A stretch of 41,134 nt of DNA from an uncultured Lachnospiraceae bacterium (GTDB taxonomy: Bacteria > Bacillota > Clostridia > Lachnospirales > Lachnospiraceae). The translations under genes and the position numbers were made by a program. The stretch spans positions 1 to 41,134 of the forward strand of contig CANQHZ010000028.1 in the NCBI GenBank assembly GCA_947623805.1, written 5' to 3'. Shown one piece after another: positions 8,780 through 39,410 of this stretch (its first letter is position 1; each line of letters begins with the position of its first letter). The notes beneath the pieces are model-generated. The model saw nothing but the letters and a program-made list of their open reading frames with translations, was not told where the DNA came from and made no database searches.

Positions 8780-9331
8780 ATGAAAAAAGCAGGCATCTTT
8801 TTTGCAGACGGATTTGAAGAAATAGAGGCGCTTACTGTAGTAGACTTGTTAAGGCGCGCAGGTATAGAGGCGGTATGCGTTTCAGTCGCAAACAAACCGG
8901 ACGTGACAGGCAGCCATAATATAAAAGTCGCAATGGACGCTACAATCGACGAGCTTGACTTTGACAGCCTTGACGTAATCGTATGTCCGGGCGGGATGCC
9001 GGGTACGAAAAATCTTGAAAAATGTGAGAAACTCACTCAAAAAATAAAAGAATTTTACGACAACAAAAAACTCATAGCCGCCATATGTGCAGCCCCTATG
9101 ATATTCGGACATATGGGCTTGTTAAAGGATAAGGAGGCTTGCATATACCCTGATATGGAGAACGAGCTGATTGGAGCAAAAGTAGTGTACGATAAGGTGG
9201 TCAAGACGGATAATATCATCACAAGCCGCGGAATGGGCACGGCCATACCTTTCGGACTTGAAATAATCGCATCGCTTGCTGGCAAAAGCGCGGCTGAAAG
9301 CTTAGCCAAGAAAATCGTTTACACGGATTGA
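8780..9331 (+). CDS. DJ-1/PfpI (ThiJ/YajL) family protein
   Basis: 183 residues, typical for the family. It shows the DJ-1 fold markers: acidic E15 in ADGFEEIEAL, VCPGGMPG (68-75) forming the oxyanion region, and nucleophile elbow AAICAAP with C103. Members are associated with oxidative-stress defence and have been described as glyoxalases or protein deglycases, although those activities are debated. GGAGG (8767-8771) is eight bases before the ATG. It precedes cheR by 37 nt on the same strand, so it may be co-transcribed with the chemotaxis-like genes. Confidence 0.93.
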   Translation: MKKAGIFFADGFEEIEALTVVDLLRRAGIEAVCVSVANKPDVTGSHNIKVAMDATIDELDFDSLDVIVCPGGMPGTKNLEKCEKLTQKIKEFYDNKKLIAAICAAPMIFGHMGLLKDKEACIYPDMENELIGAKVVYDKVVKTDNIITSRGMGTAIPFGLEIIASLAGKSAAESLAKKIVYTD

Positions 9332-9368
9332 GCTTTTTGACAAAACCAACTCACTGTGGAGTTTTATT

Positions 9369-10172
9369 ATGATTACAGAGCAGGAATTTGACCGCATAGT
9401 GCGCTATGTAAAACGCAAGGCGGGAATAAACCTTGTGGAAAAGCATGTGCTTGTACAAGGGCGGCTTGAAAATTACATACAGCGCAACGGCTATGCGTCA
9501 TATAACGAGTTTATGGATTTGGTGGAGCGTTTCCCCACGGGGACGGAGGCAAAGGACCTTATGAACATGCTTACCACCAATCATACATATTTCTGGCGCG
9601 AACACGAACAGTTTTTGTATCTCAAGCAGGAGGTATTTCCGTACCTACGCAAAAAGACTGAGAACACAAAGGACTGGCGCATATGGTGTGCGGCATCGTC
9701 GTCGGGAGAGGAGCCGTACACGCTGGCAATGCTGTGTATGGATTTTTTGGGATTAGAGCACCCGAGATGGGACACAAAGGTGCTTGCCACGGATATAGAC
9801 ACAAACGTGCTTGAACAGGCGATAAAAGGCATATACACAAAGGATTCAGTAGAGCAGCTCCCACATCAATATGTACGCCGTTTTTTCAGAAGAATTAATG
9901 ATATAGAGTATAAGGTGACGGACGAACTGAAAAAAGAAGTAATCTTCAGGCAGTTCAATCTGATGCACCAGCTCCCTTTCAAGAAACCGCTCCATGTAGT
10001 GTTTTTGAGAAATGTCATGATATATTTTGACGAGCCGACCAAGGAAAAGCTGCTGCATAATATATACGAAAAGATGGAGCCCGGCGGATACCTTTTTATA
10101 GGCTCTACCGAGTCGATTAGCCAGAACAACACGGAATTTCAATATGTCAAACCGGCTATATATCGTAAATAG
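9369..10172 (+). CDS. cheR: CheR protein-glutamate O-methyltransferase
   Basis: 267 residues. Uses S-adenosylmethionine to methylate glutamates on chemoreceptors. The N-terminal helical domain (ITEQEFDRIVRYVKRKAGI) leads to TNHTYFWREHEQF (70-82), typical of CheR. SAM motif WCAASSSGEEPYTLAM (106-121) and LATDIDTNVL follow. The C-terminal VVFLRNVMIYFD matches the family motif. There is no C-terminal receptor-tethering tail or TPR extension. GGAG precedes the ATG. It heads the group cheR-cheB-cheY-cheW-kinase-HD-GYP on one strand. Confidence 0.96.
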   Translation: MITEQEFDRIVRYVKRKAGINLVEKHVLVQGRLENYIQRNGYASYNEFMDLVERFPTGTEAKDLMNMLTTNHTYFWREHEQFLYLKQEVFPYLRKKTENTKDWRIWCAASSSGEEPYTLAMLCMDFLGLEHPRWDTKVLATDIDTNVLEQAIKGIYTKDSVEQLPHQYVRRFFRRINDIEYKVTDELKKEVIFRQFNLMHQLPFKKPLHVVFLRNVMIYFDEPTKEKLLHNIYEKMEPGGYLFIGSTESISQNNTEFQYVKPAIYRK

Positions 10173-10255
10173 TGCGAAAAGCATTATTCGGCGAAACAGG
10201 CAGACAAATTTAAGATAATTATAGATGACGGGGAATTTTATATAGGAGGCAGGTC

Positions 10256-11281
10256 ATGAGGGGATTGAGGCTATTGATTGTGACGGCGAGCCTTGAGCTT
10301 GGGCGTGTTCTCAAACAGATTGTCGGCAAGGATAACCAGCTTGTGATTGCCGCCGAGGCGAATAATGCCTATATTGCAAGAGACAAGATAATTGAGTGTC
10401 AGCCGGACGTAATGCTTATCACAAACGATTTGCCGAGGATGTCCGGTATCACATTTCTTAGCAGGCTTATGCCGCAGTATCCGGTTCCTACAGTGATGAT
10501 TGCGTCGCCGGCTCTTGAGGGCAAGGCGTATGAGGCAGGAGTGGCGGATTTTATCCCTTTTGACGAAAGTCGTGAAAATATAAAAAACGCGGCGGGAGAG
10601 CTAAGCAGCCAGTCGATATGCGACAGGTTGAAAAAAGCGGTTTATCCCGAGTGGGATAAGCTTGCCGTAAACAGCAAGGGAATGGCAAAGCTGAATACCA
10701 ATTCAAAGATAAGGTCAGTCATAGCGATGGGAGCCTCGACAGGCGGTACCGAGGCGCTTGCTACAGTCTTGAGCGGATTGCGAAAAGACATACCGGGAAT
10801 TGTAATAGTGCAGCATATGCCGGAGGGCTTTACGCAGATGTACGCCCAAAGGCTCAATAACGAATGTGAGATTACCGTCAAGGAGGCAAAGACAGGGGAT
10901 ACTGTCAGAAAAGGGCAGGCGCTTTTGGCGCCGGGCGATAAGCATCTTAGGCTTATAAAGGTAAATGGAGTGTACCAGGTGGAGTGCAGCGCCGGACCGA
11001 AGGTAAGCGGGCATTGTCCGTCGGTCGATGTGTTGTTTAAATCAGTGGCGAAGACGGCAGGCAGCGATGCAGTGGGAATACTTCTTACAGGAATGGGACG
11101 CGACGGGGCACAGGGACTTCTTGAAATGAGAAAAGCGGGCGCGCTTACGATAGGACAGGACGAAAAGACATGTATAGTTTACGGCATGCCAAAGGCAGCG
11201 TATGACTTAGGCGCAGTGACTTGGCAGGTGCCGCTTGAAAATATATCTCAAAAGCTTTATTATGTATTAGATAAAAAATAA
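10256..11281 (+). CDS. cheB: CheB methylesterase/amidase with degenerate receiver domain
   Basis: 341 residues. The C-terminal methylesterase domain (about 150-341) is intact: S161 in GASTGG, H187 in VQHMPEG and D283 in GMGRDGAQG form the catalytic triad. It would demethylate or deamidate receptor glutamates, opposing CheR. The N-terminal domain (1-115) aligns with a receiver but lacks its chemistry. Canonical VDD is VTA (10-11). The phosphorylated Asp of the canonical TLDVEMPRMDG motif is replaced by T56 (LITNDLPRMSG). The conserved Lys of the DFVTKP motif is F102 (DFIPFDE). Phosphorylation by a CheA-like kinase is therefore not expected. Only 16 nt separate it from the intact one-domain receiver gene downstream, which could act in trans (inference). 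Confidence 0.94.
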   Translation: MRGLRLLIVTASLELGRVLKQIVGKDNQLVIAAEANNAYIARDKIIECQPDVMLITNDLPRMSGITFLSRLMPQYPVPTVMIASPALEGKAYEAGVADFIPFDESRENIKNAAGELSSQSICDRLKKAVYPEWDKLAVNSKGMAKLNTNSKIRSVIAMGASTGGTEALATVLSGLRKDIPGIVIVQHMPEGFTQMYAQRLNNECEITVKEAKTGDTVRKGQALLAPGDKHLRLIKVNGVYQVECSAGPKVSGHCPSVDVLFKSVAKTAGSDAVGILLTGMGRDGAQGLLEMRKAGALTIGQDEKTCIVYGMPKAAYDLGAVTWQVPLENISQKLYYVLDKK

Positions 11282-11297
11282 GAGGGAGAGAAAAATT

Positions 11298-11690
11298 ATG
11301 AGAATATTGATTGCTGAGGACGATTTCGCGAGCAGAAAGGTAATCTTAAAGTTCCTTTCAGCCTATGGCGATTGTGATGTGACCGTTGACGGCATGGAGG
11401 CGATAGACGCTTTTATGATGGCTCTTGAGGAGGGCAATCCGTATGACCTTATATGCCTTGACGTCATGATGCCTATAATGGACGGTTATCAGGCGCTTAA
11501 AAACATAAGGGACATTGAGAAGGAGCAGAATGTTCCGGAGGACAAGGCGGTCAAAGTCATTATGACTACCGCGCTGAATGAGGAGAAGAATGTCAAAAAG
11601 GCATTTGAGCTTGGCTGTACCGTGTATTGCGGCAAGCCTATCGATATGGAAAAGCTGAAAAGTACACTGGAGACAATAGGACTTATTTAG
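11298..11690 (+). CDS. Single-domain response regulator (CheY-like)
   Basis: 130 residues forming one receiver domain with every active-site element: E7/D8/D9 (IAEDDF), phosphoacceptor D55 (CLDVMMPIMDG), Thr in IMTTALN and Lys in YCGKPID. There is no output domain, so it signals by protein contact. It is 16 nt after the cheB gene whose own receiver is inactive, and 59 nt before cheW. Candidate phosphodonors are the PAS kinase at 12334-13800 or a CheA encoded elsewhere. The GGGAG ribosome binding site is present. Flagellar-motor CheY is possible but not required by the sequence. Confidence 0.93.
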   Translation: MRILIAEDDFASRKVILKFLSAYGDCDVTVDGMEAIDAFMMALEEGNPYDLICLDVMMPIMDGYQALKNIRDIEKEQNVPEDKAVKVIMTTALNEEKNVKKAFELGCTVYCGKPIDMEKLKSTLETIGLI

Positions 11691-11749
11691 TGAATATAAA
11701 GCTTGCTTGAGATATAACGCCGCAAAGCGCGGCAGAATGAGAGGAAACT

Positions 11750-12280
11750 ATGGAAGAAAATATTCAGGAGTTAGAGCATGAGCTTGAACTTGAAATGCAG
11801 GGAGATGTCAGGCGGGGCAAATATATGACCTTTCCCATCGGTTCGGACGTATTCGGAGTGGAGCTCAAATATGTAAATGAAATTATACAGATGCAGCCAA
11901 TCGCGCCATTTCCGGAGGTTGAGGAATTTATCAAGGGACTTATAAACCTGAGAGGAAAGATAATACCTGTTATTGACGTGGCGGAGCGCTTTGGAAAGGA
12001 AAAGTTTGAATACAATGACCGTACCTGCATTATTGTCATCGAGGTTCAGGGCGTGGAGGTAGGGCTTATCATACCGAGTATAGCGGAGGTCGTATCAATA
12101 GACGAGGAGAATATACTTCCGCCGCCAAACATTTCACATGCGCCGTCAACCAACAAATTTATTCATGGCATTGGCAAAGTAGGCGACAGCGTAAAGCTTT
12201 TGCTCGACCCCGTAAAGATTTTGAGTGATGAATCTCTTGATTTCACAAATGAGCAGGAAAATGAGGAAGACGAGGCGTAA
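11750..12280 (+). CDS. cheW: CheW-like coupling protein
   Basis: 176 residues. A single CheW domain (about 24-165) with FPIGSDVFGVELKYVNEII, GLINLRGKIIPVIDV (the receptor/kinase contact strand, residues about 64-78), IIVIEVQGVEVGLI and VGDSVKLLLDPVKIL. It would link chemoreceptors to a histidine kinase. The N-terminus (about 1-23) and the C-terminus (DFTNEQENEEDEA) are unusually acidic extensions beyond the core fold. GAGG precedes the ATG. No cheA lies nearby; the next gene is a non-CheA histidine kinase. Confidence 0.94.
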   Translation: MEENIQELEHELELEMQGDVRRGKYMTFPIGSDVFGVELKYVNEIIQMQPIAPFPEVEEFIKGLINLRGKIIPVIDVAERFGKEKFEYNDRTCIIVIEVQGVEVGLIIPSIAEVVSIDEENILPPPNISHAPSTNKFIHGIGKVGDSVKLLLDPVKILSDESLDFTNEQENEEDEA

Positions 12281-12333
12281 TAAAGGCGGAGATTTTGTGG
12301 TTATCAGGTTATAGATGTGGCATGGGGGATTAA

Positions 12334-13800
12334 ATGTTAAAAAATCGTGAAGAACTTTTGTATTATGCTTTGAACAACAGTCAAGAATGTATTATAAGGT
12401 ATGACGGAAACGGGTGCATAGGCTTTTGTAATGAGCGACTTCTCGGGCTGACGGGATATACGCCGAGCGAGCTTGTGGGCGCTTATGTGGGAGAGCTTTT
12501 TCAGGATACGTTTGAAATCGTTGACGGTCACGTGCAGATTGCAAAGGCATATTCCCATATGGAAATCATAGAGACTGATATATATAGAAAAAACAAGACC
12601 TGTTTCCCCGTAGAGATGAGAATACTCGCTGAGGAGTATGATGGGAGAGAGGTTTTTATATGTACGGCGGTAGACATGACGCGCTACAAGGAAAGTCTGC
12701 GCAAGGTGGAGGAGACTACCATGCAGATGCAGGATTCCATGAAGGCAAGGGATGCGTTTGTCGCAAATGTGACGCACGAGCTGCGCACGCCGGTAAACGG
12801 CATAAAGGGACATACGGAGCTTTTGATGGAGCAGGAGACGGACTTTCAAAAAAGCAATTATCTCAAGATGATACTTGACTGCTGCAGCACGATGGAGGGC
12901 ATAATAAACAATATCCTTGACTTTTCAAAGCTTGAGGCAGGCAAATTCCAGCTTGACGAAAAGCCGTTTTCATTTTATGACTTTATGTCAAAAATGGAAA
13001 AAATGTTTAGCATGCTTACTATGCGCAAGGGACTTAGATTTATGCTGAACGTCGAGCAGGGTATTCCCGACAGACTGGTGGGCGACGAGCTGCGCCTTAC
13101 GCAGATTTTGAACAATCTCGTGTCAAACGCGGTAAAATTTACCGAGCAGGGTTATGTCGGAGTGGAGGTAAACCTGAATACTAGGATAAACGACGAAGTA
13201 GAGTTGTTTTTTATGATAGTGGATACGGGCATAGGACTTTCCACTGAGGACAAGGATAAGCTGTTTAAGAGCTTCTCGCAGGTGGACGCTTCCGTCACAC
13301 GTAAGTATGGCGGCACGGGACTGGGACTTTCCATCACCAAGGACCTCGTCAACATGATGCACGGCAAAGTCTGGGCGGATGGTGAGAAGGGCAAGGGTTC
13401 AAGCTTTTCTTTTACAGTCAGGCTCAAGCAGGAGACTTCCGCGGACGAAGCGGCAGAGCCGGCACCTGTACGCATCTGGAAACCAGCCAGCCAGATAAAC
13501 AATATTGCGGCTGAGCAGGATTTGATGTATGAGTTTGGCAGCGAGCAGAACATCAGGGCGCTTAAAAAATATTTTGAAAAATTGAATATAAGCATGGATA
13601 TGGACAATTGGCAGAAGGCGGAGAGCTTTTCTTCTATTATAAAGCAGCTTTTGGCAGGCGGTTCAAAGGAGCTGCAGCGGGCGGTATTCCGTATGGAAAT
13701 GTCAATCAGGAAATCGGATTGTGAAAAGGCGAGGGAATGCGCCCAAAAAGTAAAAGAGATGCTTGCTCAGGAGATGGAAGGGCAGGTGGATTGGCGTTGA
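12334..13800 (+). CDS. PAS-domain sensor histidine kinase (soluble)
   Basis: 488 residues with no membrane helix. PAS domain about 1-125 (YALNNSQECIIRYDGNG, NERLLGLTGYTPSELVG). HisKA follows with H148 in VTHELRTPVNGIKGH. ATPase domain N-box is ILNNLVSNAVKF (258-269), G1 is DTGIGLS (297-303) and G2 is GGTGLGLSITKDL (326-338). A tail of about 75 residues (405-478) is helical, has no conserved His and is not a normal Hpt domain, but resembles the tail of the PocR kinase at 32356-35046. It has no receiver of its own. The next gene (receiver-HD-GYP) starts inside its stop codon region, so that regulator is the most likely phosphorylation partner. The CheY-like protein is another. Confidence 0.93.
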   Translation: MLKNREELLYYALNNSQECIIRYDGNGCIGFCNERLLGLTGYTPSELVGAYVGELFQDTFEIVDGHVQIAKAYSHMEIIETDIYRKNKTCFPVEMRILAEEYDGREVFICTAVDMTRYKESLRKVEETTMQMQDSMKARDAFVANVTHELRTPVNGIKGHTELLMEQETDFQKSNYLKMILDCCSTMEGIINNILDFSKLEAGKFQLDEKPFSFYDFMSKMEKMFSMLTMRKGLRFMLNVEQGIPDRLVGDELRLTQILNNLVSNAVKFTEQGYVGVEVNLNTRINDEVELFFMIVDTGIGLSTEDKDKLFKSFSQVDASVTRKYGGTGLGLSITKDLVNMMHGKVWADGEKGKGSSFSFTVRLKQETSADEAAEPAPVRIWKPASQINNIAAEQDLMYEFGSEQNIRALKKYFEKLNISMDMDNWQKAESFSSIIKQLLAGGSKELQRAVFRMEMSIRKSDCEKARECAQKVKEMLAQEMEGQVDWR

Positions 13801-14885
13801 GCAGACTTAATTCAAACGAGAATGTAAAGATACTTGTAGTTGATGACGTTGAAGTAAATCTCATCATTCTTGAGGAAATAATAAAAAATATGGGTTATCA
13901 GCCGCTTCTTGCGCAGAATGTCAAGGAGGCGCTTAAACTTATACAGGACAGCGACGAGCTTCCGAGAGTCATTTTGTCGGATATATCGATGCCGGAGATA
14001 GACGGTTTTACTTTTTGCTCAATGCTGAAAAAAGACCCGTACACGAGGGATATTCCAGTGATTTTCATATCCGCGATGGATTCTGCGATTGATTTGAGCC
14101 AGGGATTTGCGCTGGGCGCGGTCGATTACGTGCCTAAACCGTTTGACAAGACAGAGGTCGAGATGCGTATTTCCACGCATTTAAAGCTTTACACGATGCA
14201 GAAAGACCTGGAGGAGAACAACAAACATCTCAGTGTTGTCGTGGCGCGTCAGATGGATAAGCTGCGAATAGAGCAGAAGAACATCATGACGGCGCTTGCA
14301 CGGCTTATCGAGAGCAAAGAAAACATCGGCAGCGCACACTATGAAAATATACTGTACAACAGCCGTGTGCTTGCGGAGGGCATGCAGCTTTCGCCCATGT
14401 TTGAGGATGTAATAACGGACGATTTTATAGATACGATAGAGTCAAGCGCAGGTCTTCACGATATAGGCAAAATAATGATACCCGACGAGATTTTGCTAAA
14501 AAGAGAGCCGATTTCGCCGGAGGAACGCGCTGTTATAAAGACTCACGCGGAAATCGGAGCGAAGACGCTGATTGACATATATGACGGAATCGAAAAAAAC
14601 GATTTTATAAATATGGCAATCGATATCGCGTGGGGGCATCATGAGAATTGGGACGGCACGGGATATCCGAGAGGCTTGAAGGGAGAGGAGATACCGCTTT
14701 CGGCGCGCATAGTGAAGCTTGTAGATGTGTTTGACGCTATGATTAGCAGGCGCAGATACAAGGAGCCAATACCGCTTGAACAGGTGCTTGAATACATAAG
14801 CAGCAATGCGGGGAAAGTGTTTGACCCTGATATAGTGAGAGTTTTTCTTAAGATTTACCGCAATTTCAGTGGCGTGAAAAATTGA
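13797..14885 (+). CDS. Response regulator with HD-GYP c-di-GMP phosphodiesterase output
   Basis: 362 residues from a TTG at 13797 that overlaps the kinase stop codon (TTGA). AGGTGG (13784-13789) is seven bases upstream, favouring this start over an in-frame ATG at 13737 that lies well inside the kinase gene. Receiver: D16/D17, phosphoacceptor D62 (SDISMPEIDG) and Lys in VPKPFD. A coiled-coil linker (about 130-165) leads to the HD-GYP domain: HD at 221-222 (LHDIGK), H250, HHENWDGTGYP (281-291) with the GYP triad, and VDVFDAM. HD-GYP enzymes hydrolyse c-di-GMP to pGpG or GMP. Translational coupling to the kinase suggests a cognate pair that controls c-di-GMP. Confidence 0.93.
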   Translation: MSRLNSNENVKILVVDDVEVNLIILEEIIKNMGYQPLLAQNVKEALKLIQDSDELPRVILSDISMPEIDGFTFCSMLKKDPYTRDIPVIFISAMDSAIDLSQGFALGAVDYVPKPFDKTEVEMRISTHLKLYTMQKDLEENNKHLSVVVARQMDKLRIEQKNIMTALARLIESKENIGSAHYENILYNSRVLAEGMQLSPMFEDVITDDFIDTIESSAGLHDIGKIMIPDEILLKREPISPEERAVIKTHAEIGAKTLIDIYDGIEKNDFINMAIDIAWGHHENWDGTGYPRGLKGEEIPLSARIVKLVDVFDAMISRRRYKEPIPLEQVLEYISSNAGKVFDPDIVRVFLKIYRNFSGVKN

Positions 14886-15023
14886 CAGAAAAATGGTTAT
14901 TTTATAGCAAAATATACCACTCATAAAAGAATCATCATCGTAAATAATAGGATTAAGATAAGCGGTAAAACGTTTGTCTTTGAAGATAGATATCAAAAAA
15001 TATTATTTACGGAGGTGAGACTA

Positions 15024-15227
15024 ATGGCATCGCAGAACAGATCAAACAGAGTAGAGGTTCCTGAGGCTAAGGCGGCAATGGATCGTTTTAAGACTGAGGT
15101 TGCGTCAGAGCTTGGCGTAAACTTAAAGGAAGGCTACAACGGCGACCTGACATCTAAAGAAGCCGGAAGCATCGGCGGCGAGATGGTAAGGCGTATGGTT
15201 AAGAGCTATGAGGAGTCTATTAAATAA
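15024..15227 (+). CDS. Small acid-soluble spore protein, alpha/beta type
   Basis: 67 residues. Coats and protects DNA in dormant endospores. The alpha/beta SASP signatures are present: a central germination-protease-type region FKTEVASELGVNL and the C-terminal GSIGGEMVRRMVKSYEESI. The ATG at 15024 has GGAGG (15011-15015) eight bases upstream; a GTG at 15015 overlaps that site and is rejected. Transcription by the forespore factor sigma-G is expected from the family. A CATCGTA (14936-14942) fits the CATnnTA -10, but no convincing -35 is visible. It shows that the organism can sporulate or descends from spore formers. Confidence 0.95.
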   Translation: MASQNRSNRVEVPEAKAAMDRFKTEVASELGVNLKEGYNGDLTSKEAGSIGGEMVRRMVKSYEESIK

Positions 15228-15255
15228 GTGATGGACTTCTGAAAAAGAATAAAAT

Positions 15256-15306
15256 AAAAAAGAAGCTGCGGACAATACATTATAATTGGCTGCGGCTTCT
15301 TTTTTA
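15256..15306 (+). terminator. Rho-independent terminator of the spore protein gene
   Basis: AAGAAGCTGCGGACAAT and ATTGGCTGCGGCTTCTT arms form a 17-bp stem with two G-T pairs and one mismatch, followed by TTTTTT. Confidence 0.9.
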
Positions 15307-15359
15307 ATAAAAATATTATTATTTTCAGGGAAAATAGTCTTTTTTTTTTGTGTCTGTTA

Positions 15360-15368
15360 TGTTATAAT
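15360..15368 (+). promoter_or_regulatory. Extended -10 promoter for tig-clpP-clpX
   Basis: TG-T-TATAAT at 15360-15368, a perfect -10 with the TGn extension. The region 17 bases upstream is only a T run, so recognition would depend on the extended -10. The leader to tig is about 85 nt. No CtsR heptad repeat is recognised nearby. Confidence 0.6.
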
Positions 15369-15460
15369 ATCAAAATGACTGTATACAAAAGTGATACATA
15401 GGTTTTATTTTTGTGTCAAGAATTTTCAGGTGTATCGGGAATGAGGAATGGAGGATAAAA

Positions 15461-26787: not shown

Positions 26788-26807
26788 AATGGCATGAGCG
26801 TTATAAT
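26779..26807 (+). promoter_or_regulatory. Sigma-A promoter for the flavodoxin gene
   Basis: TTGACT (26779-26784), 17 bases, TATAAT (26802-26807). The -35 lies inside the last codons of the amidase gene, and the flavodoxin ATG is 60 nt downstream of the -10. Confidence 0.78.
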
Positions 26808-26867
26808 AAATTTTAACGAGGGGTTTGTATGGTGGTGCCGTAGGAATTTAAAGGAGGTAATGTTGTT

Positions 26868-27347
26868 ATGGCAAAGACGTTGGTGGCGTATTTTTCCGCG
26901 AGCGGAGTGACAGCCAAGCTTGCGGGGGAGCTGGTTAAGACAATTAAGGCTGATTTGTATGAGATTACTCCCGCCCAGAAATATACGAGAGAGGATTTGG
27001 ATTGGAATAACAAAAACAGCCGAAGTTCAGTGGAGATGACAAATCCTGATTCAAGACCTGAGCTTGGCGGAGAGCCGATTGATATATCGCAGTATGATGC
27101 TATATACTTGGGATTTCCGATATGGTGGGGTGTAGCTCCGCATATTGTGAATACATTTCTTGAAAAATATGATTTCAGCGGCAAGACAATTATTCCTTTT
27201 GCGACATCAGGCGGGAGCGGCATAGGCGATGCGGCAGAGCATTTGAAGCCGTCAGCGCCCGGCGCCAAGATAAGAGAGGGCAAACGTCTTGGCGGTATGG
27301 AAGACATGGAAGCGCTCAAGGTCTGGACAGACGGAATAGAGATTTAG
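26868..27347 (+). CDS. Flavodoxin family protein
   Basis: 159 residues. FMN-binding electron carrier or small flavin reductase. The phosphate-binding loop is YFSASGVTAKLA (about 8-19, with SASGVTA taking the place of the classic T-x-T-G-x-T). YLGFPIWWGVAPHIVNTF and IPFATSGGSGIGDA form the isoalloxazine-binding loops, with the tryptophans typical of flavodoxin_4-type proteins common in gut Firmicutes. GGAGG (26853-26857) is ten bases upstream. It is a single-gene unit with its own promoter and terminator. The redox partner is unknown. Confidence 0.93.
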   Translation: MAKTLVAYFSASGVTAKLAGELVKTIKADLYEITPAQKYTREDLDWNNKNSRSSVEMTNPDSRPELGGEPIDISQYDAIYLGFPIWWGVAPHIVNTFLEKYDFSGKTIIPFATSGGSGIGDAAEHLKPSAPGAKIREGKRLGGMEDMEALKVWTDGIEI

Positions 27348-27354
27348 AGGATAG

Positions 27355-27397
27355 CTCCTGCAGTTTTATTTTATGTAAAGCTGCGGGAGTTTTTTTT
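27355..27397 (+). terminator. Rho-independent terminator of the flavodoxin gene
   Basis: CTCCTGCAG (27355-27363) pairs with CTGCGGGAG (27381-27389) through nine pairs, one of them G-T, followed by eight Ts. Confidence 0.93.
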
Positions 27398-27517
27398 GTT
27401 AAAAGCCGCATATTTTATAAAAGAAAGTATAAAAAACGTGCGGTGGCGCAAAATATTTGCATATGGACGAATGATTTTTGCTATGATATTCGGGTGTTTT
27501 GAAAAAATTTAAAAAAA

Positions 27518-27544
27518 TTAGCACTCAACACTTGACAGTGCTAA
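27518..27544. promoter_or_regulatory. CIRCE operator (HrcA binding site)
   Basis: TTAGCACTC, nine bases, CAGTGCTAA. This matches the CIRCE consensus (TTAGCACTC-N9-GAGTGCTAA) at 17 of 18 positions. The right half overlaps the -35 of the hsp20 promoter, so bound HrcA would block RNA polymerase. The nearest gene is hsp20; no hrcA, groE or dnaK gene is in the window. Confidence 0.95.
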
Positions 27545-27560
27545 CAATAAGTGTTATATT
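27532..27560 (+). promoter_or_regulatory. Sigma-A promoter of the hsp20 gene
   Basis: TTGACA (27532-27537), 17 bases, TATATT (27555-27560). The -35 lies across the CIRCE spacer and right arm. The leader to the ATG is about 70 nt. Confidence 0.88.
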
Positions 27561-27637
27561 ACAACTAGAACAAATAAAACAGGACAGACAAAAAAGAAAG
27601 CCTGTCCACCTTATATCAATGAAAGGAGTAATGACTT

Positions 27638-28090
27638 ATGTTAAGACCTAGTATTTTTGGAGAGGATTTATTTGATGAGATGATGAATTTCCCGTTTGAC
27701 AATGACTTTTTTGGCAGACGCGGGGGGATGTTCGGTAAGAATGTTGACAATATAATGAAAACCGACATACGGGAAACGGATAACAGCTATGAGCTGGATA
27801 TAGACCTGCCGGGCTATAATAAGGAGGATATAAACGCACAATTAAAGAACGGCTACCTCACAATTTCAGCCTCAAGAAACGTGAACAACGACGAGAAAGA
27901 CGACAAGACAGGGAAATATATCCGCCGCGAGAGATATGTCGGCAGCATGAGCAGAAGCTTTTATGTAGGCGAGGGCGTTACGCAGGAGGACATACATGCT
28001 AAGTTTGAGAGCGGTATATTGAAGCTCACTGTTCCCAAGAAAGACGCCAAGGCAATTGAACAGAGCAACTATATAGCAATTGAGGGATAA
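27638..28090 (+). CDS. Small heat-shock protein, Hsp20/alpha-crystallin family
   Basis: 150 residues. An ATP-independent holdase chaperone that binds unfolding proteins. The short N-terminal arm (LRPSIFGEDLFDEMMNFPF) leads to the alpha-crystallin domain (about 42-135): KTDIRETDNSYELDIDLPGY, NGYLTISASRN, ERYVGSMSRSFYV, and the closing GILKLTVPK. The C-terminal tail SNYIAIEG supplies an IAI-type anchoring motif for oligomers. The ATG at 27638 has GGAG (27625-27628) nine bases upstream; the ATG at 27631 runs into a stop. Expression is heat-inducible through HrcA/CIRCE, judged from the overlapping operator. Confidence 0.96.
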   Translation: MLRPSIFGEDLFDEMMNFPFDNDFFGRRGGMFGKNVDNIMKTDIRETDNSYELDIDLPGYNKEDINAQLKNGYLTISASRNVNNDEKDDKTGKYIRRERYVGSMSRSFYVGEGVTQEDIHAKFESGILKLTVPKKDAKAIEQSNYIAIEG

Positions 28091-28106
28091 CGACTGAATA
28101 AAAACC

Positions 28107-28141
28107 AAAAACCCGACGGCAGCGATAACCGTCGGGTTTTT
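28107..28141 (+). terminator. Rho-independent terminator of hsp20
   Basis: AAAACCCGACGG and CCGTCGGGTTTT form a perfect 12-bp stem around CAGCGATAA, ending in a T run. Confidence 0.94.
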
Positions 28142-28145
28142 AAGC

Positions 28146-28174
28146 TTGTAAAAGCTTTATGCGTATGCTATAAT
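28146..28174 (+). promoter_or_regulatory. Sigma-A promoter, extended -10, for the DUF2156-GNAT gene
   Basis: TTGTAA (28146-28151), 17 bases, TGc-TATAAT (28166-28174). It starts right after the hsp20 terminator and gives a leader of about 100 nt. Nothing recognisable is seen in that leader. Confidence 0.7.
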
Positions 28175-28282
28175 AAATGCGATTTCAGACAAAAACGCAC
28201 ACAATAAAATTTTGCACAATATAAATATAAATACACTCGCACGAAAAATGTAATGGCAGTGTCTTGATATGGGAGAATTGAA

Positions 28283-31276: not shown

Positions 31277-31361
31277 TAAGAAAATAATTAAAAAGGCTTG
31301 TGCGTAGGCTGGCAGGGATGTATGCAGCCTTATGCAAAAGGGGCGTAGAAATGAGGTAGTT

Positions 31362-32249
31362 ATGAAATATAAGCTTTTACTGACAGGAAAAAATAATACG
31401 ATTATGGATGATTTTTTTTCGCATCTGAATGACGGTTTTGATTCCGTTTCGACATCGCTTAGGTGGGAGGACATTATGAACCACGTAAGACTGATGAAAC
31501 CGGATGCCTTTTGCTACTGTGTCGGGAATGAGGTAAAGGAGAACGCGGAACGCACGACAAATATAAAGGCGAAGCTTGAGCCATATAATATTCCCTTTAT
31601 CGTAATGGGTACGGAAACTAACTGCAGCGCATTTTTTAAGATGGCTGCCTGCTCGGTAGACTTTACATTGCGATATCCTATGAAGGTGTCTGATGTAAGG
31701 GATAAGCTTACCAAGTTCCTTGACGACTGGTACAAGGAGGAGCGTGAGCGGCGTGAGGCTGAGGCGGCGGAGAGAGCTAAGGCGGCGGAAAAGACGATTG
31801 AAGATGCAAAGGCGCTGGACCTTGAGATAGAGCAGGCGCTTTTGGGCATTGATAATATAAAGAGCGGTGCCGAGCCCGCAGCGTCAAGGCGTAAGCATGT
31901 TATGATAGTGGATGACGATTCGGCAATGCTTAAAACAATCAAGGAGCAGCTGCATGATAAATATGATGTGGCTACGGCGCTTAGCGGCAAGATTGCGCTT
32001 AAATTTTTGGAGAAGAAAACTACAGACCTTATTCTGCTTGACTACGAGATGCCGGCGGAAAAAGGTCCCGAGATTTTGGAGAAACTGAGGGCTAATCCCG
32101 CGACAAAGGATATACCTGTTATTTTCCTTACGGGTGTTACCGAGAGGGAGAAGATAACGCAGGTGTTAAGCATGCGCCCGCAGGGGTATCTGGTTAAGCC
32201 TGTCGAGCATGATAAGCTTATGGCGATTATAGAAAAGACTTTGGCATAA
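31362..32249 (+). CDS. Response regulator: N-terminal pseudo-receiver plus C-terminal receiver
   Basis: 295 residues from ATG 31362, which has GAGG five bases upstream; the in-frame ATG at 31332 has no such site. Residues 1-120 look like a receiver fold that lacks phosphorylation residues (start KYKLLLTGKN without acidic pair; PDAFCYCVGN without Asp). A charged Glu/Arg/Ala-rich helix (about 121-165) follows, then a complete receiver (178-295): D184-D186, phosphoacceptor D227 (LILLDYEMP), T257 (FLTG) and K279 (YLVKP). There is no DNA-binding or enzymatic output. It sits 106 nt before the PocR hybrid kinase, its likely phosphodonor. Confidence 0.88.
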   Translation: MKYKLLLTGKNNTIMDDFFSHLNDGFDSVSTSLRWEDIMNHVRLMKPDAFCYCVGNEVKENAERTTNIKAKLEPYNIPFIVMGTETNCSAFFKMAACSVDFTLRYPMKVSDVRDKLTKFLDDWYKEERERREAEAAERAKAAEKTIEDAKALDLEIEQALLGIDNIKSGAEPAASRRKHVMIVDDDSAMLKTIKEQLHDKYDVATALSGKIALKFLEKKTTDLILLDYEMPAEKGPEILEKLRANPATKDIPVIFLTGVTEREKITQVLSMRPQGYLVKPVEHDKLMAIIEKTLA

Positions 32250-32355
32250 AACATTTTTCGCGAATGATTTAGGTGCATGCTGAAATAAAAAATGGGATTT
32301 AGCCAAGTGCGGGCATTTTCCGTTGGAATAAACATGACATTGTGGGGGCATGGGT

Positions 32356-35884: not shown

Positions 35885-37600
35885 GTGGCAAGGACTGTAG
35901 GCATAGGCATTCAGGATTTTGAGACAATCATAACAAATGATTATTTTTATATAGATAAGACGCACTTTATAAAGGAGTGGTGGGAGAGCGGCGACAGTGT
36001 AACGCTTATCACGCGTCCGCGCCGTTTCGGGAAGACGCTCACGATAAGCATGCTTGAAAAGTTTTTTTCTGTGAAATATGCGGGCAGGGGTGATTTGTTT
36101 GAGAAACTGTCTGTGTGGCAGGAGGAGAAGTACCGCAAGTTGCAGGGGACGTATCCTGTGATAAGTTTGAGTTTTGCGAATATAAAGGAGACGGATTACA
36201 AGGCGACGAGGGAAAAGATATGCCTGCTTTTGTCAAAGCTCTATTCGCAGTATGAGTTTCTGACGGAGGGGGACACGCTTACAGAGGGAGAAAAGAAATA
36301 TTTTAAAAGCGTATCGCCTGATATGGACAATACTATAGCGACTATGGCGATTTACCAGCTTTCGGATTTTTTGCATAGGTATTATGGCAAAAAAGTAATT
36401 GTGTTGCTTGATGAGTATGATACGCCTATGCAGGAGGCGTATGTCAGGGGATACTGGGACGAGATGGCGGCGTTTACGAGGAGTCTGTTTAACTCAGCAT
36501 TTAAGACAAATCCGTGGCTGGAGCGTGGCTTAATGACAGGTATAACGCGGGTTAGCAAAGAGTCAATTTTTTCGGATTTGAACAATTTGGAAGTAGTGAC
36601 TACGACTACAAATAAGTATGAGGCAGTTTTCGGCTTTACCGAGGCGGAGGTATTTGCCGCTATGGACGAATACGGCATAACGAATAAGGACAAGGTAAAG
36701 GCGTGGTATGACGGTTTTAATTTTGGAAGTGTGACAGATATATATAATCCGTGGTCAATCTTGAAATTTTTAAGCCATGGCAAATTTGAGGCGTACTGGG
36801 CAAACACAAGCTCAAACAGCCTTATCAACAAGCTTATCCGCGAGGGCGGCTCGGATGTCAAGAAAAAATTTGAAGGTCTTCTGAATGGGGAGCCTGTCGT
36901 GAGCAATATTGATGAACAGATTGTGTACAATCAGCTTGACGTAAGACCGAACGCGATATGGAGTCTGCTGCTGGCGAGCGGATATTTAAAGGTACAGCGG
37001 CTAAAGACATATGACGACATAGACTGGCTGGGCGGGGCAAAGCCCGAGTATGAGCTTGTGCTGACGAATTTTGAAGTGCGCCTTATGTTTGAAACAATGA
37101 TTTTGGACTGGTTTGGCGTAGTTGAGTCGGATTACAATGATTTCGTCAAAGCGCTACTGTCAGGCGATATAAAAGCAATGAACGAATATATGAACCGCGT
37201 ATCGAGCGAGGTTTTCAGCTATTTTGACACAGGAAGGAGAAAGTCCGGTAAGGCTGAGCCCGAGCGTTTTTACCATGGCTTTGTGTTGGGTTTGCTGGTA
37301 GAGCTGAGGGGAAGATACCGCCTTACTTCAAACAGGGAGAGCGGTTTCGGCAGGTATGACGTAATGCTTGAACCTCTTAACAAAGACGACAACGCGATTA
37401 TTCTGGAGTTTAAAGTGCGTGACGCTGACGACGAACAGACGCTTGCCGATACGGTAAATGAGGCATTAAAGCAGATAGATGAGAGGCAGTATTCGCAGAC
37501 GTTGATTGATAATGGCATAAGTATAGGGAAAATCAAAAAGTATGGTTTTGCATTTGAGGGAAAAAAAGTACTAATCGGCGGAAGTGCGAAGCGGGATTGA
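35885..37600 (+). CDS. AAA-ATPase-like/PD-(D/E)XK nuclease family protein, copy 1
   Basis: 571 residues, GTG start; the overlapping ATG one frame away stops after five codons. The N-terminal P-loop ATPase of the AAA-ATPase_like family has FYIDKTHFIKEWW, Walker A-type RPRRFGKTLTISML (44-57, GKT 49-51) and Walker B VIVLLDEYDTP (171-181). The C-terminal PDDEXK_9-type nuclease has HGFVLGLL, D492 (GRYDVML) and E508-F-K510 (ILEFKV), the D-ExK catalytic set. These two-domain genes are abundant and multi-copy in anaerobic Firmicutes and Bacteroidetes; their biological role is not established. Next to it is a near-identical copy with mosaic divergence. Confidence 0.92.
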   Translation: MARTVGIGIQDFETIITNDYFYIDKTHFIKEWWESGDSVTLITRPRRFGKTLTISMLEKFFSVKYAGRGDLFEKLSVWQEEKYRKLQGTYPVISLSFANIKETDYKATREKICLLLSKLYSQYEFLTEGDTLTEGEKKYFKSVSPDMDNTIATMAIYQLSDFLHRYYGKKVIVLLDEYDTPMQEAYVRGYWDEMAAFTRSLFNSAFKTNPWLERGLMTGITRVSKESIFSDLNNLEVVTTTTNKYEAVFGFTEAEVFAAMDEYGITNKDKVKAWYDGFNFGSVTDIYNPWSILKFLSHGKFEAYWANTSSNSLINKLIREGGSDVKKKFEGLLNGEPVVSNIDEQIVYNQLDVRPNAIWSLLLASGYLKVQRLKTYDDIDWLGGAKPEYELVLTNFEVRLMFETMILDWFGVVESDYNDFVKALLSGDIKAMNEYMNRVSSEVFSYFDTGRRKSGKAEPERFYHGFVLGLLVELRGRYRLTSNRESGFGRYDVMLEPLNKDDNAIILEFKVRDADDEQTLADTVNEALKQIDERQYSQTLIDNGISIGKIKKYGFAFEGKKVLIGGSAKRD

Positions 37601-37691: not shown

Positions 37692-39410
37692 GTGGCAAGG
37701 ACTGTAGGCATAGGGATTCAGGATTTTGAGACAATCATAACAAATAACTACTTTTATATAGACAAGACGCACTTCATAAAGGAGTGGTGGGAGAGCGGCG
37801 ACAGCGTGACGCTTATCACGCGTCCGCGCCGTTTCGGGAAGACGCTCACGATAAGCATGCTTGAAAAGTTTTTTTCAGTGAAGTATGCGGGCAGGGGGGA
37901 TTTGTTTGAGAAGCTGTCTGTGTGGCAGGAGGAAAAATACCGTAATCTGCAGGGGATGTATCCTGTGATAAGCCTGAGCTTTGCGAACATAAAGGAGACG
38001 GAGTACAAAATAGCGAGGGAAAAAATTTTTTATGCTTTGATAGATTTATACACGCAGAATGAATATCTGCGTGACAGTGATGTGCTTACGGAGAATGACA
38101 GGAAATATTTTGACAGTATAACAATAGACATGAGTGACAGCATAGCCACGCTTGCGCTCAATAAGCTTTCGGATTTTCTGCATAGGTATTATGGCAAAAA
38201 AGTAATCGTGCTGCTTGATGAGTATGACACGCCTATGCAGGAGGCATATGTTAGGGGATATTGGGACGAGATGGCGGCTTTTACGAGGAGTCTGTTTAAC
38301 TCAGCATTTAAGACAAATCCGTGGCTGGAGCGCGGCTTGATGACAGGCATAACGCGGGTTAGTAAAGAATCAATTTTTTCGGATTTGAACAATTTGAAGG
38401 TAGTCACGACGACTTCAAATGAATATGCGTCTTCATTTGGATTTACGCAGTCCGAGGTGTTTTCTGCTATGGACGAGTTTGGATATGGCAGTAAGGATAA
38501 GGTGAAGGCATGGTATGACGGGTTTAACTTCGGCAAAATCAGTGACATTTATAATCCGTGGTCAATAATAAATTTTCTTGATACGGGCAAGGTGTCTGTA
38601 TATTGGGCAAACACAAGCTCAAACAGCCTTATCAACAAGCTTATCCGCGAGGGCGGCTCAGATGTCAAGAAAAAATTTGAAGGTCTTCTGAATGGAGAGC
38701 CTGTCGTGAGCAATATTGATGAGCAGATTGTGTACAATCAGCTTGACGTAAGACCGAACGCGATATGGAGCCTGCTGCTTGCAAGCGGGTATTTAAAGGT
38801 ACAGCGGCTAAAGACATATGACGACATAGACTGGCTGGGCGGGGCAAAGCCAGAGTATGAGCTTGTGCTGACGAATTTTGAAGTGCGCCTTATGTTTGAA
38901 ACAATGATTTTGGACTGGTTTGGCGTAGTTGAGTCGGATTACAACGATTTCGTCAAAGCGCTACTGTCAGGCGATATAAAAGCAATGAACGAATACATGA
39001 ACCGTGTGTCGAGCGAGGTTTTCAGCTATTTTGATACAGGCAGGAGAAAGTCTGGTAAGGCAGAGCCCGAGCGTTTTTACCATGGCTTTGTTTTGGGATT
39101 GTTGGTAGAGCTGAGGGGAAGATACCGCCTTACTTCAAACAGGGAGAGCGGCTTCGGTAGGTATGACGTAATGCTTGAACCTCTTAACAAAGACGACGAC
39201 GCGATTATTCTGGAGTTTAAAGTGCGTGACGCTGACGACGAGCAGACGCTTGGCGATACGGTAAATGATGCATTAAAGCAGATAGATGAGAGGCAGTATT
39301 CGCAGACGTTGATTGATAATGGCATAAGCATGGAAAAAATCAAGAAGTATGGTTTTGCGTTTGAGGGAAAAAAGGTACTAATCGGCGGGCGTGCAAATAA
39401 GATGGATTGA
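37692..39410 (+). CDS. AAA-ATPase-like/PD-(D/E)XK nuclease family protein, copy 2
   Basis: 572 residues, GTG start in the same sequence context as copy 1 (start-to-start distance 1807 nt). The same ATPase motifs and D492, E508 and K510 are conserved. Residues 1-102 and 159-235 are almost identical to copy 1. Residues 104-158 and 236-302 differ at many positions. Residues 303-546 differ at only about three positions (503, 521, 526). The variable parts lie between the ATPase motifs, where partner or substrate recognition might reside (inference). Both reading frames are intact. No separate promoter is evident in the 91-nt gap; a GGTTA/TAACC hairpin lies there. Confidence 0.92.
   Translation: MARTVGIGIQDFETIITNNYFYIDKTHFIKEWWESGDSVTLITRPRRFGKTLTISMLEKFFSVKYAGRGDLFEKLSVWQEEKYRNLQGMYPVISLSFANIKETEYKIAREKIFYALIDLYTQNEYLRDSDVLTENDRKYFDSITIDMSDSIATLALNKLSDFLHRYYGKKVIVLLDEYDTPMQEAYVRGYWDEMAAFTRSLFNSAFKTNPWLERGLMTGITRVSKESIFSDLNNLKVVTTTSNEYASSFGFTQSEVFSAMDEFGYGSKDKVKAWYDGFNFGKISDIYNPWSIINFLDTGKVSVYWANTSSNSLINKLIREGGSDVKKKFEGLLNGEPVVSNIDEQIVYNQLDVRPNAIWSLLLASGYLKVQRLKTYDDIDWLGGAKPEYELVLTNFEVRLMFETMILDWFGVVESDYNDFVKALLSGDIKAMNEYMNRVSSEVFSYFDTGRRKSGKAEPERFYHGFVLGLLVELRGRYRLTSNRESGFGRYDVMLEPLNKDDDAIILEFKVRDADDEQTLGDTVNDALKQIDERQYSQTLIDNGISMEKIKKYGFAFEGKKVLIGGRANKMD

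Follow-up and report, generated by a model that had tools for sequence, protein, structure and literature searches.

CheB methylesterases are described both with a receiver domain and without one; Campylobacter jejuni CheB and Myxococcus FrzG lack any receiver. A separate literature describes bacterial pseudo-receivers, or aspartate-less receivers, which keep the receiver fold without the acidic pair, the Asp, the Ser/Thr, and the Lys (PMC12632262, PMC4395418). By the own analysis of a 2025 review they make up ~6% of bacterial receivers, and their switching is called a mystery there (PMC12632262). In Escherichia coli, the laboratory mutants CheB D56E and CheBc have an esterase that is uncoupled from CheA phosphorylation, and the role of the CheB phosphorylation feedback is described as a long-standing open question (PMC5809149).

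The CheB considered here, designated CheB*, is encoded in a 41,134-nucleotide stretch of DNA from an uncultured Lachnospiraceae bacterium (contig CANQHZ010000028.1; hereafter the window). It shares with canonical CheB, as known from Salmonella (1a2o) and Pectobacterium (6ymz), the two-domain layout, the catalytic triad, and 38% identity (Foldseek alignment) but differs in that all five active-site positions of the receiver have been replaced, so that phospho-activation of CheB* is impossible by known chemistry. Like the receiver-less CheBs, CheB* is without phospho-control through a receiver; unlike them, it has kept the domain. It differs from described pseudo-receivers in its output domain, a CheB methylesterase, and from the E. 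coli laboratory mutants in being natural, clade-wide, and furnished with an N-terminal domain that is still under constraint. Pseudo-receivers as such are already known. Among the titles and abstract beginnings searched for a CheB whose receiver is altered or missing, none concerned a CheB with a pseudo-receiver; the texts of PMC12632262 and PMC4395418, supplements aside, contain neither "CheB" nor "methylesterase", and such a protein could appear among the output domains tabulated in the supplement of PMC4395418.

Receiver and esterase residues of CheB*

CheB* matched Pfam CheB_methylest with 215.7 bits and Response_reg weakly, with 33.7 bits against a cut-off of 30.2. In an alignment with Salmonella CheB (1a2o), T10/A11 occupy the positions of the acidic pair, T56 that of the phosphorylated Asp, and F102 that of the Lys, confirming what the initial annotation had read from the sequence; the Ser/Thr position, absent from that annotation, is also lost (A83). 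CheB* consequently lacks every residue class by which a phospho-activated CheB is recognized (acidic pair, phospho-Asp, Ser/Thr, and Lys), and its N-terminal domain, recognizable by profile and fold with the key catalytic residues gone, classes as a pseudo-receiver (PsR). The alignment placed no Asp at the true phosphosite. D58 was considered as a shifted phosphosite and ruled out, being homologous to the Glu of the "DVELP" motif. The methylesterase triad S161/H187/D283, which had likewise been proposed beforehand, is complete and lies within the CheB_methylest domain, as it does in 26/26 members of the clade described below, placing CheB* among the CheB methylesterases. Features of the cluster are given in Table 1.

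TABLE 1 Coordinates of the chemosensory cluster in the window and of the parts of CheB*
Feature	Positions	Strand	Basis
cheR, receptor methyltransferase	9369..10172	+	Pfam CheR, 205 bits
cheB*, CheB with pseudo-receiver, 341 aa	10256..11281	+	ORF, Pfam, 1a2o alignment, clade comparison
Pseudo-receiver domain, aa 1-120	10256..10615	+	1a2o alignment, (beta-alpha)5 fold in model, clade comparison
Pseudo-receiver site codons	T10/A11 10283-10288, T56 10421-10423, A83 10502-10504, F102 10559-10561	+	
Clade-specific conserved patch, aa 34-48, end of beta2 and alpha2	10355..10399	+	Permutation, model
Methylesterase domain, aa 154-335	10715..11260	+	Pfam CheB_methylest 156-334; 1chd match
Triad codons	S161 10736-10738, H187 10814-10816, D283 11102-11104	+	
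rec, stand-alone receiver, 130 aa	11298..11690	+	Pfam, alignment, genus search
cheW	11750..12280	+	Pfam CheW, 118 bits
PAS-HisKA-HATPase histidine kinase (HK)	12334..13800	+	Pfam
Response regulator with HD-GYP-type output (HDGYP), predicted c-di-GMP phosphodiesterase, start uncertain	13737..14885	+	Pfam Response_reg and HD_5

An AlphaFold model gave the pseudo-receiver a (beta-alpha)5 fold with high pLDDT over residues 1 to 100 and a helix at 38 to 48. Against the Thermotoga maritima CheB receiver (3t8y), TMt was 0.79 to 0.80 for CheB* and 0.87 to 0.88 for an intact control, and the esterase domain matched 1chd with an rmsd of 1.1 Å. The predicted domain arrangement was dropped as evidence, its pTM of 0.61 (rmsd to 1a2o, 17 Å) being accompanied by a pTM of 0.60 (15 Å) in the intact control; with the control equally uncertain, the models are silent on whether CheB* is open or closed.

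Other features of the window include ~1.5 kb between two genes without an ORF of at least 180 aa (26788-28282) and a tandem pair of very similar ATPase-like genes of 571 and 572 aa (35885-37600 and 37692-39410). A 305-aa protein at 31332-32249, adjoining a hybrid kinase at 32350, resembles by eye a degenerate receiver in its N-terminal half and a complete one in its C-terminal half and is possibly a second pseudo-receiver.

The loss defines one clade

CheBs were drawn from a CheB search of 60 genomes, a receiver search of 38 genomes of the genus, and loci L093 and L231. Of the 38 genus genomes, 27 encode a degenerate CheB and 9 an intact one; the other 2 (G011 and G024) looked like losses of cheB and rec, a reading dropped because their contigs stop within the cluster. 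All but one of the 27 degenerate CheBs are full length, that of G061 being cut at a contig end. In a single alignment, Asp56, Lys102, and Ser/Thr83 were found in 0/26 full-length clade members and in 66/66 other Lachnospiraceae-type CheBs; the same split held for Asp or Glu at position 10, and Asp11 occurred in one clade member (L005) versus all 66 others. All 92 proteins have the full triad. The comparison set of 66 holds each distinct CheB from Lachnospiraceae-type loci L026-L033, L101-L133, L139, L140, and L181-L210. L034, L156, and L157, which contain X letters, were excluded together with more distant CheBs, and every readable non-clade row among those excluded has Asp56 and Lys102 (L156 has X at 56). 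In other genera of the family, Asp56 and Lys102 are present at 49 of the 49 readable loci out of 50, a set that partly overlaps the 66; L224 is unreadable without its N terminus.

Because the distant CheBs are intact, the loss looks derived and single. In a tree from the esterase columns (85 rows, 26 of them degenerate), the degenerate CheBs require one change, with an SH-aLRT of 94, which for this quick method with flagged long branches is just below the support mark. The receiver thus looks to have turned into a pseudo-receiver a single time, on the branch leading to a clade within one genus of the Lachnospiraceae. Intact close homologs, which might have marked the change as recent, were sought, and no intact ortholog was found within the clade; a recent mutation or sequencing error is ruled out by the presence of degenerate CheBs in 26 genomes forming one clade. 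The CheB of locus L006 (genome G029) has E56 at the phosphosite and a Tyr at 102, a possible phosphomimic.

Break-up and probable replacement of the cluster

In other genera, cheB, rec, and cheA are neighbors at 33 of 50 loci, flanked in many cases by HK-HDGYP-cheR in front and cheW-MCP behind; the remaining 17 have other layouts. The order in the degenerate clade is cheR-cheB*-rec-cheW-HK-HDGYP, with cheR upstream of cheB in the loci read and neither cheA nor a receptor gene. This cluster lies between PfpI and tig-clpP-clpX in the window and in L040 and L048, and the same holds for L049 up to the end of its stretch. Loss of the receiver's phosphorylation residues goes with the break-up of the cheB-rec-cheA cluster, the genes for CheA and the receptor now lying at other loci. 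The HK of the window has matches in 37/38 genus genomes, which are of two kinds.

A loss of CheA from the clade is ruled out by an orthologous CheA (CheA*) at another locus, found in 23/27 degenerate genomes and in G011 but in 0/9 intact genomes, and matching the operon CheA at 57 to 61% over its full length. CheA* was not found in degenerate genomes G008, G014, G032, and G033, and the CheA matches of the nine intact genomes are of the operon and flagellar types. A gain of CheV to replace CheB feedback is ruled out, CheV being genus-wide (35/38); among the 23 degenerate genomes that have CheA*, 14 carry CheV at a distance of 4 to 7 kb from it. At L083:9059-16309, as judged by eye, the genes after the relocated cheA* encode a small HPt-like protein that stands alone and an OmpR-type regulator with a kinase, CheV being 4 kb off.

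A receptor matching the operon MCP to its C-terminal end (MCP*) was detected, with at most 40 candidates scored per genome, in 25/27 degenerate genomes, at 47 to 54% and with the match reaching the last residue. Within the same limit, G061 gave a shorter match (48%), G028 none, and the nine intact genomes none, their non-operon matches being at most 44%. MCP* ends in DFGKY in 19/19 sequences read (18 degenerate genomes and G011), which fits the CheR/CheB tether motif xZxxZ (PMC7698151), as do the tails of 55/65 distinct complete MCPs of che loci with at least 45% to the operon MCP. With cheR adjacent and MCP*, a candidate receptor, ending in a CheR/CheB-type tail, CheB* would have the partners of a CheB methylesterase. 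The number of receptor matches per genome ranged from 11 to 38, with at most 68 candidates scored, and the genome of the window also encodes an intact flagellar-type CheB (L037); CheB* may therefore act on other receptors or be backed up.

In a tree built from the trigger factors of 29 genomes (13 with degenerate and 8 with intact CheB, G011, G024, and 6 from other genera), the members with intact CheB nest inside the genus as two groups, group A (G004, G006, G010, G012, and G031, with G024) and group B (G009, G018, and G025), so that the distribution of degenerate and intact CheBs needs two changes in this single-gene tree with several open inner forks. A trigger-factor match was not found for G027. 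In the CheB tree, the CheBs of both groups fall among those of other Lachnospiraceae. Compared with window positions 8780-15457, the old site holds an HK-HDGYP remnant in one sub-lineage (group B: PfpI-HK-HDGYP-tig in L291 and L292, L293 ending after HDGYP) and is empty in the other (group A and G024: PfpI-tig in L296-L299, L301, and L302, with G027 left out). We infer from these arrangements that the dispersed set was swapped for an intact one-operon set in two lineages of the genus, probably twice. Such a swap of sets would imply that cheR-cheB*-rec-cheW, CheA*, and MCP* act as one pathway; for CheA* and MCP* this membership rests on about two replacement events, so that the counts carry no simple P value, and many assemblies are fragmented. 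G011 retains CheA* and MCP* while cheB and rec are absent from its assembly, its cluster contig ending after cheW.

Fixed differences between the two cluster types, based on 16 degenerate rows (14 for CheA), numbered 7/267 positions in cheR, 2/176 in cheW, 5/488 in HK, 3/382 in HDGYP, 11/722 in cheA, 2/122 in the CheB receiver, and 0/189 in the CheB esterase. For rec they numbered 2/130 (16 versus 57 rows).

Selection on the pseudo-receiver and the possible role of rec

Within the clade, the receiver differs in amino acids 1.87 times as much as the esterase (median of 300 pairs of 25 sequences), compared with 1.02 times among intact CheBs (171 pairs of 19 sequences). In 18 degenerate pairs, omega was 0.039 to 0.134 for the receiver and 0.009 to 0.063 for the esterase, and the receiver was higher in 18/18; in 9 intact pairs, it was higher in 5 (pairs were chosen at a dS of 0.1 to 1.5 and are nonindependent). 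The pseudo-receiver is relaxed yet far from neutral and is under purifying selection, which suggests a kept function. Between residues 4 and 108, 12 positions are at least 90% conserved in the clade with a residue that differs from the intact majority, and 7 of these (E34, N36, N37, A38, K44, E47, and C48) lie within residues 34 to 48 (permutation P of 0.006 for any 15-residue stretch, uncorrected for shared ancestry). The alpha1-beta2-alpha2 surface, newly important here, is also among the regions newly important in pseudo-receivers according to covariation networks, and position 34, which by our numbering corresponds to D-22 there, is half of the strongest covariation pair, in true receivers too (PMC12632262).

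The product of rec matched Pfam Response_reg with 66 bits. The complete one-domain receiver announced 16 nt downstream of cheB* was borne out by its ORF and by an active site that is complete and conserved in the alignment (D8/D9, D55, T90/T91, and K113), and as a single receiver of this kind in a che cluster it classes with the CheY-type stand-alone receivers. It occurs in 36/38 genus genomes and adjoins cheB in all 36 (27 degenerate and 9 intact). The initial annotation had taken rec as the natural heir of the lost signal, a view that the same pair beside intact CheBs in nine genomes does not favor: adjacency is no evidence of a take-over and must have preceded, or be independent of, the loss. 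Given this and the cheB-rec-cheA neighborhoods of other genera, rec looks like the CheY-type output of the pathway.

It is nonetheless conceivable that phosphorylated rec binds the pseudo-receiver and opens CheB*, the lost signal arriving in trans. The constant adjacency, the conserved active site of rec, and the constrained new surface of the pseudo-receiver would suit such a contact, for which PleD and proposed PsR-receiver heterodimers offer precedents (PMC12632262). We nevertheless judge it improbable, since the adjacency is identical beside intact CheBs, rec hardly differs between the two cluster types, and the intact-operon lineages lost rec and cheB* as a block with cheR and cheW. That the receiver is decaying under relaxed constraint, a leftover hinge or lid without input on a plainly constitutive enzyme, is an idea to which we give slightly more credence while still holding it unlikely: the excess divergence of the receiver agrees with it, as do the lost positions, which include most of the alpha4-beta5 region conserved in intact CheBs, but omega stays low, stops are absent within 25 CheB matches, the fold is predicted with high pLDDT, and the new residues are conserved in a patch.

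Cysteines raise a further reading, in which some clade members exchanged the phospho-switch for a thiol switch at 56 and 102, the positions of the phospho-Asp and the Lys. Of the 26 clade CheBs, 14 carry both C56 and C102 and 2 more combine S56 with C102, and neither cysteine is found in the 66 intact CheBs; C48 (24/26) and C122 (22/26) are each present in 1/66 of the latter. Redox-controlled pseudo-receivers do exist (PMC12632262). The window protein, however, has C48 and C122 but T56/F102, only some clade members have the C56/C102 pair, and Cys may be a filler for a buried pocket, and we regard this switch as very improbable. Somewhat more credible than any of these, although also unlikely, is that the CheA-CheB feedback was cut and the receiver rebuilt as a sensor of another input through beta2-alpha2, perhaps including the C56/C102 thiol pair in part of the clade, with two sub-lineages regaining feedback by the operon swap.

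Proposed mechanism and implications

The explanation that we favor is that CheB* probably works unphosphorylated in a working CheA*-CheW-MCP*-rec pathway, its pseudo-receiver being kept as a docking or control module. It starts from what is observed: the loss in the sequence, the clade, the constraint, and the gene order. The pathway would consist of the receptor MCP*, CheW, the kinase CheA* encoded elsewhere, CheR, CheB*, and rec as the output of CheA, with the HK/HD-GYP pair putatively attached; this wiring, like the replacement history, constitutive activity, and docking, goes beyond those observations. CheB* would demethylate the receptor without being phosphorylated, and adaptation would rest on the activity-dependent susceptibility of the receptor to CheR and CheB, the additional feedback loop from CheA to CheB being cut. 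The pseudo-receiver may dock the receptor tail at alpha5 and the linker and a partner at beta2-alpha2. In E. coli CheB, the tether is bound at the alpha5-linker junction, and much more strongly by the activated open form than by the closed one (PMC8609364); whether CheB* is open or closed is therefore the central question. E. coli cells whose CheB carries D56E or is reduced to its catalytic domain adapt precisely, and their kinase activity is bimodal between cells (PMC5809149). By analogy, cells relying on CheB* would be expected to adapt although the feedback is missing and to vary more from one to the next.

Because loss of feedback in E. coli leads to bimodal kinase activity, the rebuilt-sensor reading, unlikely as it is, would further allow the clade to use the cut loop for splitting its populations, the chemosensory output concerned being tied to the turnover of c-di-GMP. 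The clade represents a natural knockout of the CheB phosphorylation feedback in an enzyme that is easily assayed, and controls are at hand in the intact relatives within the same genus and in the apparent replacement events. The effect of a constrained pseudo-receiver on a known enzyme can be tested here, as can whether a cut loop raises cell-to-cell variability. As a sensor-resetting enzyme that is apparently not switchable by phosphate, CheB* is a natural case in which the purpose of that switch can be tested.
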